Shown one piece after another: positions 10,494 to 58,274 of a DNA stretch of 64,000 nucleotides. The position numbers were made by a program, and so were the translations under genes. Source of the DNA: Thermodesulforhabdaceae bacterium (lineage in GTDB: Bacteria > Desulfobacterota > Syntrophobacteria > Syntrophobacterales > Thermodesulforhabdaceae). The notes beneath the pieces were generated by a model, which saw nothing but the letters and a program-made list of their open reading frames with translations, had not been told where the DNA came from and searched no databases. The first letter of the stretch is position 1. Each line of letters starts with the position of its first letter. The DNA lies in assembly GCA_037482015.1 (NCBI GenBank), contig JBBFKT010000001.1, positions 310,001 to 374,000 on the forward strand. Reading direction: 5' to 3'.

Positions 10494-10505
10494 CCCCCAC
10501 CTCAT

Positions 10506-10527
10506 CCCTCCCCGTCAATGGGGAGGG
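10506..10527. repeat. short palindromic repeat module
   Basis: CCCTCCCC ... GGGGAGGG, the same module as at about 21.55, 38.61, 48.77 and 48.96 kb, where it reads CTCCCCGTTGACGGGGAG. Here it lies alone in the 76-base gap between two convergent genes. Confidence 0.6.
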
Positions 10528-11787: not shown

Positions 11788-12008
11788 ATGGTGTTCTAAA
11801 GCTTCTCTTATGATGTGGCAAAGTAGCATAAACTATAGGAAATACCGGGATAGAACTCAACTTGGAGAATCTTTCCAGATGCAAGCAGCTAAGAAACGAC
11901 TCAATATGTGATTTGCCAGAAAATGTAATGGCGACGCATGCGTCGCCCCTACAAACTGTTAGGCTATTACCAGGATAACCCTGCGTGGGAAAAATTTTCG
12001 AGCACTCT
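11788..12008 (+). mobile_element. MITE-like non-coding element, copy 1
   Basis: About 220 bp with inverted ends: left GGTGTTCTAAAGCTTCTC, right AAAATTTTCGAGCACTC. The interior has GGCAAAGT-CATAAAC, a CTCAA-TTGGA segment, the palindrome GCGACGCATGCGTCGC (11931-11946) and CTATTACCAGG-TAACCCTGC. The same order is seen, partly, at 21.2, 41.8, 48.2 and 58.1 kb. No transposase frame is present, so it would be moved in trans. It fills most of the gap upstream of bioB, ending about 65 bases before the start codon. Confidence 0.65.
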
Positions 12009-12072
12009 TGTAGTAAAGTAGAATGTTCGAATATGGTTCTTCGAAGAAGTAGAATTAAAGGAGGCAATCTCA

Positions 12073-19866: not shown

Positions 19867-21066
19867 CTAGCCTTCCTCGTCCAGTTCTGCTTTGGGTGGG
19901 TATGGCACGGCTTCTGGTTTGGGTAGTAGATGACGTGGCGTAAAGGCTACTCCAGCAATCCAGGTTGGAACTACTGCACTGGCAATTACCGCTGCCACGA
20001 GGAAAGAATATTGAGACTGAGTTACAATGTTATGGGTAAAGCCATAAAGAGCCGATATCGTTCCAAAAGTAAGACCCGTGGACATAAGGAGAGTATAATA
20101 CCACCGTTCATTGTGTTCCTTGCGAAAGAGCGAGATAAATGGGTAAAGTCCAAAAATTTTTGAGAACACTTTTCCACCTAATAGAGCAAGAAATACAAGA
20201 GGCGCTGAAATAAGTGCCGGAAGAGACACGAATGTTCCCGCTCTCAGAAAGTAGAAAGGTGCTAGGAAACCCACAGTAAGCGTTCTTAATCGTCTTAACC
20301 AGAAGGTGTCACTCTGGGAAAACTGAGCAAGCACCATACCTGCCAGGTATGCCGGTAAAACAGGTTCGCTACCTGACCATAAAGCCAGTGCACCAAGGAG
20401 AAAAAGAATGAAGACCACCCATTTGGTTCTTATAGCCGCTGTGCGGTAAGCATAAATTTGGGTGATAAATCTGGTGGTGCGTGGGAGCACTATTAGGACA
20501 ATAATGGTTACAATGACGAAAACAACCGTTTTATAAGTAAACGGTGCGAAAATAAGCCCTAGAGCTATAACTGTTCCAAGATCGTTTATAAAACAGGCGC
20601 CCAGGATCCCTTTTCCAAATTCGGTTTCATTGAAACCAGTCTCAATCATGACTGCATAAACTACAGCCATTGATGTTGTGGAGAGAGCTACTCCAGCGAG
20701 CAAACTGGCTCGAAAATCCCATCCTAGAATGTAGTAAGCGATGGCGGCACAACCCAGGAATGGAGAAAGAAAGCCTATCAAACCGACGATACTTACTTCT
20801 TTTGCCTTCTCCTTCAGTGTTTCCGGTTCAAGTTCGGCTCCAGCAAGGAACGTAAGTAACACCGCGCCTGTTGAAGCAAGGAAGCGAAGCCATTCGGAGT
20901 TTGCTCCGAGCAAATCGGCTTTTCCTAAATACCCTGCTATAGCTGCTACAACCACCCCCACGCAAATCTCGATGAGAGCAATTGCAACTCGTAGATGGTA
21001 AGCAATAACTGCTGAAATAACTGCTAAAACCAACCAGGCTGTAGCAACAACATACACCTGTTCCAT
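19867..21066 (-). CDS. cation:proton antiporter (CPA2/Kef-type membrane domain)
   Basis: 399 residues, almost wholly hydrophobic with about 11-13 membrane helices, from MEQVYVVATAWLVLAVISAVIAY to PTWIAGVAF. The family's LTFLAGAELEPE (helix 3) and the discontinuous-helix region CFINDLGTVIAL (around 160) carry the acidic residues that bind Na+, K+ or H+ in NhaA/KefC-like exchangers. No C-terminal RCK/TrkA_N domain follows, so it is a short type. AGGAGG stands close to the ATG. Ion specificity cannot be told. It is convergent with the J-domain gene, 11 bases apart. Confidence 0.82.
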   Translation of the reverse strand: MEQVYVVATAWLVLAVISAVIAYHLRVAIALIEICVGVVVAAIAGYLGKADLLGANSEWLRFLASTGAVLLTFLAGAELEPETLKEKAKEVSIVGLIGFLSPFLGCAAIAYYILGWDFRASLLAGVALSTTSMAVVYAVMIETGFNETEFGKGILGACFINDLGTVIALGLIFAPFTYKTVVFVIVTIIVLIVLPRTTRFITQIYAYRTAAIRTKWVVFILFLLGALALWSGSEPVLPAYLAGMVLAQFSQSDTFWLRRLRTLTVGFLAPFYFLRAGTFVSLPALISAPLVFLALLGGKVFSKIFGLYPFISLFRKEHNERWYYTLLMSTGLTFGTISALYGFTHNIVTQSQYSFLVAAVIASAVVPTWIAGVAFTPRHLLPKPEAVPYPPKAELDEEG

Positions 21067-21227
21067 TTTGGAAGACCTCCTGATTTGAAAAAGTTTTTTT
21101 ATGTGGCAGTATAAAAGACCAGTTCAATGGTAGGAGTCATCAACCTGCGGGAGCAGGTGGTTAAAGGGGGACTCCATCCCCCAAGAATCTTCGGCTACAC
21201 TCTGATAAATTGAAAGTCAAGGAAAAT

Positions 21228-21800
21228 TAGAGATTGTTCGAAAACTTCCCTTATTGAGTGGCAAAGTCACATAAACCATAGAAACGCAGGAATGAAACTC
21301 AATTTGGAAGACCTTGCCACACTCAGTATATGGCTCGTCAGAATTGGATAGGGGCGGTCAGTATGACCGATCCCCTCCCACACCACCCGGCATGCGGGTT
21401 CGCACCGGGCGGTTCGATAAGATAAGTGTAGGGGCAATCCCTTGTGGTTACCCCGTAACCAGGATTGTAGGGGAAACCCCCGTGGTTGCCCCGTAATCGG
21501 GCAGGCACAAGGCCTGCCCCTACGGGACGGTTATCGTTAGCACCTCCCCGTTGACGGGGAGGGGTCCGGTTCTTGTTCATCGGCTCACAGTTTCGTTCCA
21601 CGCTTCCTCCCCACACTCGGTCACCCTCGCGCAGTTACGCTTCCCTTCGTTCGCTGTGATCAATCGACGGGAGGACTTTCACCTCCAGGAGCACGCCCAT
21701 GCCGGGCGCACTAAATCGCATGCGTCGCCCCTACAGATTGTGTGCCTATTGCCGAACATGTCCGATGGTATGTGAGAGTTTTCTAAAAAGATTGTGGAGA
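21228..21800. mobile_element. MITE-like element, copy 2, carrying a miniature group II intron
   Basis: The left end GAGATTGTTCGAAAACTTCCC (21230) and GGCAAAGT-CATAAACC-ATAG plus CTCAATTTGGA match copy 1 at 11.8 kb in the same order. After this the copy is interrupted by intron-like sequence (21348-21711) and then resumes with GCATGCGTCGCCCCTAC (21717-21733). Palindromic modules GTAGGGG-CAATCCC, GGGCAGGC-GCCTGCCC and CTCCCCGTTGACGGGGAG sit inside. The right end is not clear. Together with flanks this explains most of the 815-base gap between the antiporter and the sigma54 activator; the ORFs read here are not believable. Confidence 0.55.
21348..21711 (-). ncRNA. ORF-less degenerate group II intron
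   Basis: On the minus strand the segment opens GTGCGCCCGGCATGGGCG, matching the GUGCG 5' end of bacterial group II introns, followed by GGAGGTGAAAGTCCTCC, GGAAGCGTGGAACGAAAC and GAGCCGATGAACA, stretches I recognise from intron domain I. It closes with a hairpin like domain V (ACCGCCCGGTGCG...CGCATGCCGGGTGGT, two-base bulge, CGC triad as in class C) and a domain VI-like hairpin ending CCCCTAT. At about 364 nt there is no room for a reverse transcriptase, and palindromic repeats occupy the middle. Splicing ability is unknown. Confidence 0.5.
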
Positions 21801-38557: not shown

Positions 38558-38806
38558 GAGGGTGTTTTGAAAAGTGTAGGGGCGACCTGCCAGTCGCCCC
38601 TACAACTCCGCACCCCCTCCCCGTTGACGGGGAGGGCCGGGGAGGGGTCCGGTTTCTGTCCATCGGCTCGCAGGACGGCGAAGACGCCGTTCCTCCCGAG
38701 ACTGCAGTAAAATATTTGGGAGGGTCGCCGTCATCGGCGACCGATACATAGAGAATCACCCCCCATCCTCGGTGACCAAAGTAGGAGAAAAAATTTTTCA
38801 CACTTA
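38558..38806. mobile_element. MITE-like element, copy 3
   Basis: Left end GAGGGTGTTTTGAAAAGTG, right end region GAAAAAATTTTTCACACTTACC (inverse). Inside are palindromes GGGGCGACCTGCCAGTCGCCCC, CTCCCCGTTGACGGGGAG, GGACGGCG-CGCCGTTCC and GGGTCGCCG-CGGCGACC, and the segment CCGGTTTCTGTCCATCGGC also found near the intron remnant at 21.6 kb. The same series occurs inverted in the outer element at 48.2-49.0 kb. No clear target duplication. Together with flanks it fills the gap between tRNA-Met and the thioesterase. Confidence 0.55.
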
Positions 38807-48242: not shown

Positions 48243-49009
48243 GAGCGTGTTCTAAAAAACGTCAATAAGGGTGGAGAGGGTGTTCTAAAAAGTGGGTGAT
48301 GTGTTCGTAGCACCGGCCATTTTACGATATTGGTTGGGGATATTGTAGGGGCGACCGGCCGGTTGCCCCTACATGTAAAACAACCTCACAGGGGGAGGAT
48401 GAAGTCTGTAGTCTGTAGGGGCAGGCCTTGTGCCTGCCCTATTATGGGGCAACCACAAGGGGTTGCCCCTACGATGATGCCTTGAATGACAAAATTCAGC
48501 TTGGAAAATCTTCCCAGACTCAGGTGGCTAAAAAACAACCTCAATATATGATTCACCACATAACTGTGGGACAACGTATGGGTTGCCCCCACAAATTATT
48601 ACGGAGTTTTTTAAAACACCCTCATAAGGGTGGAAAACTTTTCTTCTTACTTTGGTCGCCGAGGACGGCGACCCTCCCAATATTTTAACACCGTCTAGGG
48701 AGGGAGGGCGTTCTTGCGGTCTTTTTTTGAGTGTTGCGAACCTATAGACAGGAACCGGACCCCACCCCAACCCTCCCCGTCAACGGGGAGGGAGAAGAAG
48801 TCCCCCGTTGACGGGAGGATTTAGGGGGGTTAGTACTTCCGTGCCCTATGCGAACACAGGCTGGGTTAAATAGCAAGTTACTCGAGCCGGTAATTATAAA
48901 AGTGCGGTGCTCAACGGCCTTATGTTGGCAGGAGCAGCCTCTACCTAGATCATCCCTGTCAACGGGGAGGGAGTTTGGTAAGGGCGACCGGTCGGTTGAA
49001 CACACTCTC
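48243..49009 (-). mobile_element. MITE-like element, copy 5 (outer), interrupted by copy 6
   Basis: Left end GAGCGTGTTCTAAAAA at 48243, right end (inverse) GAGAGTGTGTTCAAC at 49009. With the inner element removed, the sequence reads in the same order as the inverse of copy 3: ACTTTGGTCGCCGAGG, GGCGACCCTCCCAA, GGAACCGGACCCC and CTCCCCGTCAACGGGGAG, then GGGCGACCGGTCGG. It ends 20 bases before the sfsA start codon, so it may provide or disturb that gene's promoter. ORFs inside have no family resemblance. Confidence 0.6.
48276..48623 (+). mobile_element. MITE-like element, copy 6 (inner), with perfect 11-bp target duplication
   Basis: Ends GAGGGTGTTCTAAAAA and (inverse) GAGGGTGTTTTAAAAA, a 16-bp terminal inverted repeat with one mismatch. 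It is flanked on both sides by ATAAGGGTGGA (48265-48275 and 48624-48634), a perfect 11-bp direct repeat. Contents: GTAGGGGCGACCGGCC palindrome, GGGGCAGGCCTTGTGCCTGCCC, GGGGCAACCACAAGGGGTTGCCCC-type palindromes and the CTTGGAAAATCTTCCCAGA-CTCAATATATGATT segment shared with copy 1. No ORF of note. Confidence 0.75.
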
Positions 49010-58053: not shown

Positions 58054-58274
58054 CCAGGTGCTCGAAAATTTCCGCGGACAACTAGGAAACGACCCAATAT
58101 GTTATTCACCAAAATGTAGGGGCGACGCATGCGTCGCCCCTACATGCACTTCTCGAACCGCCCGGTGCGGACCCGCATGCCGGATGGTGTGGGATGGGAT
58201 CGGTCAAACTGACCGCCCCTATCCCAATTGGACCTATTGCAAAAACTGCTAGAAAAAATTTTTCGAGCAATCTC
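58054..58274 (+). mobile_element. MITE-like element, copy 7, containing a group II intron 3' fragment
   Basis: Left end GGTGCTCGAAAATTTCC, right end (inverse) GAGATTGCTCGAAAAATTTTT. Inside are CCCAATATGTTATTCACC, the palindrome GTAGGGGCGACGCATGCG with its complement (58116-58143), then an intron-like piece (58154-58222) and ACCTATTGCA-AACTGC as in copy 1. No target duplication is evident. It occupies the gap between the methyltransferase and the CDP-alcohol gene. Confidence 0.65.
58154..58222 (+). ncRNA. group II intron domain V/VI-like fragment
   Basis: Same sequence family as the end of the miniature intron at 21.35 kb, in opposite orientation: ACCGCCCGGTGCGGACC and CGCATGCCGGATGGT fold as a hairpin with a two-base TG bulge, then GGGATGGGATCGGTCAAAC with TGACCGCCCCTATCCC. 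Only the 3' end is present, as expected for an incomplete reverse-transcribed insertion. Confidence 0.5.

Follow-up and report, generated by a model that had tools for sequence, protein, structure and literature searches.

The minus-strand sequence at positions 21343-21711 of the window, that is the whole 64,000-nt stretch analyzed here (G000:C1:310001-374000 of a 2.7 Mb draft genome in 32 contigs), most probably represents a dead deletion relic of a class IIC group II intron. It belongs to a family of ORF-less forms which would once have been spread in trans onto the palindrome of a MITE-like repeat. We assign this reading a probability of about 0.83. On its own the window copy is ordinary debris, and the real finding is the family. 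Some 40-50 class IIC-like members, copies and fragments taken together, are spread over a 2.7 Mb assembly without reverse transcriptase (RT), an unusually large colony for an element of known kind. Its target appears to have shifted from terminators to a MITE palindrome, and such palindromes were in turn built into the introns. The family forms a natural series from a nearly complete ribozyme to a relic and provides a test case for how far trimming still allows spread.

Judged from its sequence, the window element is a genuine class IIC-like derivative of a group II intron, and the earlier note on this DNA was right in recognizing a minus-strand derivative with both ends. The element comprises 369 nt without an ORF, begins with GTGCGCCCGGC and has GUGYG/AY termini, with GTGCG exactly at 21711 and ...CCAAT at 21343. 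The earlier note had placed the 3'-end at 21348, resulting in a length of 364 nt. This had to be corrected, since the other copies in the genome and the relatives terminate in ...CCCCTATCCC(A/G)AT. The Infernal search suggested in the note yielded matches to two Rfam models, of which RF02001 (group-II-D1D4-3) scored 32.3 bits and thus barely exceeded its gathering score of 32, whereas RF00029 (DV-DVI) remained with 35.7 bits (E 2.7e-5; 21343-21414) below the curated cut-off of 40. As also described there, DV folds with a two-base bulge and the CGC triad, closed by a GAAC loop, and DVI forms a hairpin with an unpaired branch-site region. The folding z-score of DV-DVI is -4.8. The 5' half of DI folds no better than shuffled sequences (z -0.05), so that no claim is based on its fold. 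Alignment of the window element with 40 other sequences revealed a common structure of DV and DVI, including an unpaired UA with the bulged branch-site A in the DVI consensus CCCCTATCC. In DV-DVI, four pairs carry changes of both partners in one sequence or more; one of these pairs is GC in 28 and CG in 13 sequences. The assignment as class IIC-like draws on sequence, type of DV and target habit.

BLAST searches of the own genome gave 57 matches with the window element and 73 with the longest copy. Grouped by place, these correspond to about 48 loci, a count in which some halves at contig ends may be one copy. Copies possessing both ends are between about 250 and 620 nt long. The longest one (C2:67793, 624 nt) retains DI-DIII and DV-DVI together with a remnant of the RT N-terminus, and its RT deletion leaving a stub is found identically in C2:1. 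A second deletion, from DIII to DV, is common to 6 copies (C5, C15:206, C21, C26, C3:196894, and C9). A third one, from DI to DV, characterizes forms of about 336 nt, represented by 5 copies (C1:409909, C4:24637, C3:31596, C10:1, and C15:30415) and a truncated sixth, which occupy differing MITE types and orientations. At family level the same ORF deletions thus occur at unrelated sites, and this recurrence of several internal deletions in the same form at separate sites speaks for spread in trans, whereas the internal junction of the window copy is unique and was found in no other copy. In many copies the interior of DII has given way at the same place to GTAGGGGC palindromes that differ from each other (e.g. 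L002, L005, L023, and C2:1-109 (L198)), and at about ten sites a block consisting of GATAACGATAACCGTCC and the GTAGGGGC repeat stands in place of DIII. The draft is fragmented and N runs lie within two copies (C1:388640 and C1:401770), hence some mosaic copies may be assembly artefacts. A twintron-like nest was seen at G000:C1:484640-485231 (L197), where C1:484937 sits behind the palindrome that replaced DII of C1:485231. A tmRNA gene (L039 1883-2243, minus strand) is located near the intron relic C6:137155-137410.

The palindrome GTAGGGGC...GCCCCTAC forms the center of the MITE-like repeat and occurs 71 times in the genome as an exact pattern. The repeat itself, represented in the window at 11830-12010 and 48492-48623, gave 66 BLAST matches in its own genome (G000). 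It was absent from G001 of the same genus, G038 and G417, and G211 of the same family had a single 28-nt match. Among 26 five-prime ends of the intron family, 22 lie a few nt after this palindrome or a decayed form of it, including the window copy with one arm lost. Three follow a GACGGCG..CGCCGTC hairpin and one (C20:1124) a classical terminator. At family level 25 of the 26 are preceded by a hairpin or decayed hairpin, and the 45 nt upstream of the five-prime ends in the own genome have a median folding energy of -23.8 kcal/mol, compared to -6.1 kcal/mol for random stretches of the window. Nine out of ten TGCCGTGCCCCTACAATCG sites run straight into intron sequence (4 of these at a contig end) and one is empty. 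For three other copies (C2:67793, C5:45406, and C1:426168) joining of the flanks revealed empty sites, i.e. intron-less repeats that match over the junction, and the best match of C5:45406 was the 11.8 kb repeat of the window. A candidate for EBS1 is UGAU in a loop of DI, which had the best mean pairing (3.12 of 4) of 45 positions tested on sites that are not independent. Together with the habit of the relatives described below, the family bears out the view that these ORF-less elements were inserted beside hairpins in the manner of class C introns.

Nearly all copies are found in MITE or palindrome surroundings, which could also mean that intron pieces were carried as passengers by the MITEs or palindromes, i.e. 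by DNA transposition, recombination or gene conversion instead of retrotransposition of intron RNA. The 5'-only and 3'-only fragments joined to palindromes resemble products of recombination, and two of the deletion families are missing essential parts of the ribozyme, both of which would fit such a transport. We nevertheless regard it as unlikely. Exact 5'-ends also occur after the other hairpin (3) and the intrinsic terminator (1), the empty sites match at the splice boundaries, copies with the same deletion reside in different MITE types and orientations, and the relatives share the geometry of a hairpin followed by the intron.

Searches of the assembled genome with PF00078, TIGR04416 or the RT protein of a relative detected no RT gene. 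The searches as such work, because they were positive in control genomes and, for TIGR04416, in 22 out of 39 genomes of the order. About 16 of the 64 contig ends fall inside intron copies, so that a copy carrying the RT could have dropped out during assembly or binning. Hence, the maturase in trans postulated in the earlier note has no counterpart in the assembly, and a helper RT can only be deduced. A full-length RT-bearing relative, which the note had asked for, does exist, but in other genomes. Among 395 genomes of the phylum, G325 carries an RT-bearing intron (L095) of about 1.84 kb with an RT ORF of 456 aa, whose ribozyme scores 110.9 bits with RF02001 and shares 85% DNA identity with positions 1-385 of C2:67793. 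Its RT has 485 relatives in genome_contigs, and the best 80 of these 485 are mostly proteobacterial. The RT-bearing relatives start with GTGCGCCC directly behind hairpins, mostly with a T-run as in intrinsic terminators, which is the class IIC habit; of 14 copies inspected in G325 and G133, 13 likewise lie behind hairpins of this kind. In G325:C1 (L097 2111-2322) two intron 3'-ends are inverted and abutting, possibly a scaffolding artefact.

We propose that the family descends from an ordinary class IIC intron with its own RT. It was probably acquired horizontally, since near-identical RT introns are common in Proteobacteria and one is present in a genome of the same phylum. Close relatives were rejected as donors: G001, G038, G211, and G417 are without a group II RT, and DNA searches detected no intron in G001, G038, and G211. 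In the host lineage most or all copies would have lost the RT gene, and the ORF-less forms may have multiplied by retrotransposition with the RT of a sister copy acting in trans, inserting just after DNA hairpins as class IIC RNPs do. The favored target would have shifted from intrinsic terminators to the central palindrome of a MITE that is abundant locally. Presumably these palindromes, like other hairpin repeats, also became lodged within the introns themselves, frequently in DII. Copies may then have been shortened when palindromes within an intron recombined with others outside it. The palindrome-joined fragments, among them the one at 58114-58228 of the window, would accord with such events. 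Counting against this explanation are the forms without DII and DIII at several sites, which are poorly explained by normal splicing and reverse splicing. It is conceivable, if doubtful, that the forms of about 336 nt, having lost DII, DIII, and part of DI, still behaved as SINE-like non-autonomous retroelements and reached new hairpin sites, with both an RT and the ribozyme functions they lack provided in trans.

The window copy retains the first 147 nt of DI as well as DV and DVI, with a GC hairpin and a repeat block in between (Table 1). In this scheme it would have been inserted into a MITE like that at 11.8 kb and then have lost the 3' half of DI, DII, DIII, and one arm of the palindrome. 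The earlier assignment of both flanks to the 11.8 kb repeat holds. The joined flanks align with it over the junction with a score of 82, compared to 35 for the best of 300 shuffles; BLAST gave no match spanning the empty site, which was found by gapped alignment. The alignment contains a 10-nt deletion that corresponds to the right arm of the palindrome. It is therefore literally true that the 5' exon is half of a palindrome, as had been noticed, but this most likely reflects later damage to a full palindrome. Alignment with relatives and own copies showed that one C of the basal stem of DVI is missing.

Table 1. Intron relic, host repeat and related fragments in the window (positions of the window)
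Feature	Position	Strand	Basis
DI 5' half, 147 nt, starts GTGCGCCCGGCATGGGCG	21565..21711	-	90% identical to positions 1-147 of C2:67793; conserved in RT-bearing relatives
GC hairpin repeat (CCCCTCCCCGTCAACGGGGAGG) replacing conserved DI piece	21540..21564	-	Same hairpin at same point in other copies
TAACGATAACCGTCC + GTAGGGGCAGGCC... hairpin repeat block in place of DI 3' half, DII, DIII, and ORF	21427..21539	-	About 10 further copies have this block between DII and DV
DV: CGC triad, 2-nt bulge, GAAC tetraloop	21382..21414	-	RF00029 35.7 bits; fold; structure common to relatives
DVI, bulged branch-site A, intron 3'-end CCCCTATCCAAT	21343..21381	-	Alignment with relatives and own copies
5' exon side: MITE-like repeat, left arm of GCGACGCATGCGTCGC palindrome; right arm deleted (10 nt)	21712..21753	-	Joined-flank alignment to 11830-12010
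3' exon side: rest of same MITE-like repeat	21246..21342	-	Joined-flank alignment
Intact intron-less host repeat copy (empty site)	11830..12010	-	Alignment
Second family fragment: palindrome fused directly to DV-DVI	58114..58228	+	
DI fragment with GC hairpin, beside a palindrome	38606..38673	-	
DI fragment with GC hairpin, near MITE copy at 48492-48623	48735..48792	+	

A repeat related to the TAACGATAACCGTCC + GTAGGGGCAGGCC... block was found at 48415-48475 of the window. The GC hairpin repeat CCCCTCCCC..GGGGAGGG is also present outside of intron copies, alone or in fragments, at 10495-10527, 38615-38647, and 48760-48794. The relic is flanked on one side by a sigma54-type regulator gene and on the other, about 150 nt downstream, by a fluoride riboswitch (54.3 bits, 21124-21190), which lies directly upstream of a gene for a 399-aa antiporter-like membrane protein (19867-21066). 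All of these are encoded on the minus strand, and the genes were named from their translations.

The copies of the family diverge in a nearly star-like manner from a single consensus by mostly private changes. In the own genome divergence from this consensus amounts to 5.7% in DV, 6.4% in DVI, and 4.2% in DI. Among 45 pair changes in DV 30 broke the pair, 15 were one-sided and kept it, and none was compensatory; the catalytic triad is altered in 7 of 29 copies. The copies now decay without constraint on DV. In the RT-bearing relatives most positions of DV are invariant, whereas here DV has drifted as far as DVI and DI.

The domain set of the window copy is incomplete, and it is on this ground classified as a relic and not as a working intron. 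The earlier note had envisaged a compact working miniature, an ORF-less intron that is spliced and mobilized by a maturase in trans. This is very improbable, even though the copy has kept its two ends, an intact CGC triad, and a DV and DVI that fold well. In place of DII, DIII, and the 3' half of DI, to which the likely EBS1 loop (GCTCTCGTGATCAAGG) belongs, it contains an unrelated GC hairpin and GTAGGGGC repeat. Furthermore, a basal pair of DVI and the palindrome arm next to the 5' exon are lost, and the assembly has no RT. In view of the missing ribozyme domains and of the unique junction, the copy was concluded to be unable to splice. It is almost certainly an inactive deletion relic as far as its sequence tells, and is probably without activity at present. 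Finally, a chance origin of the DV-like and DI-like similarities within a hairpin-dense repeat, to which the RF00029 score under the curated cut-off might point, can be dismissed as practically negligible, given the 57 matches in the own genome, the pairs preserved by two-sided changes, and the presence of this DNA at 85-91% identity both in an intron with RT from another genome and in introns of Proteobacteria that have matching ends.

Several known systems share features with this family. Bacterial class C (IIC) introns insert after intrinsic terminators or attC sites (PMC4424553, PMC8919778), and a class IIC intron has been visualized with a DNA stem-loop by cryo-EM (PMC10190682). The family resembles them in the type of DV, in insertion a few nt after a DNA stem-loop, and in having RT-bearing relatives of the same habit. 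In contrast to them, its main target is a MITE palindrome without a T-run, and the copies are ORF-less and mostly degenerate. Searches of the open-licence literature turned up no class IIC introns described as inserting at MITE palindromes. C.te.I1 of Clostridium tetani likewise is an ORF-less group II intron in a genome without detectable IEP gene, but self-splices within an expressed gene (PMC4424553), whereas our copies are in decay and come from a draft genome. A further parallel is offered by Thermosynechococcus elongatus with its ORF-less TeI3 introns (Mohr et al. 2010, PMC2882425), where the intron family includes 17 ORF-less members (PMC2882425). Both families consist of many dispersed copies with a common ORF deletion that leaves N- and C-terminal ORF remnants, and both show nesting in mobile elements and sister introns and mobilization in trans, the latter being deduced in our case. 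The TeI3 introns differ in belonging to another lineage (closest IEP relative EcI5), in their complete ribozymes, and in potentially active RT genes in the genome (PMC2882425), while the family described here is class IIC-like, has several deletion families and a hairpin target, and comes from an assembly without RT. By analogy, the family is taken to work like the ORF-less T. elongatus introns, with the hairpin targeting of class IIC introns redirected to a MITE.
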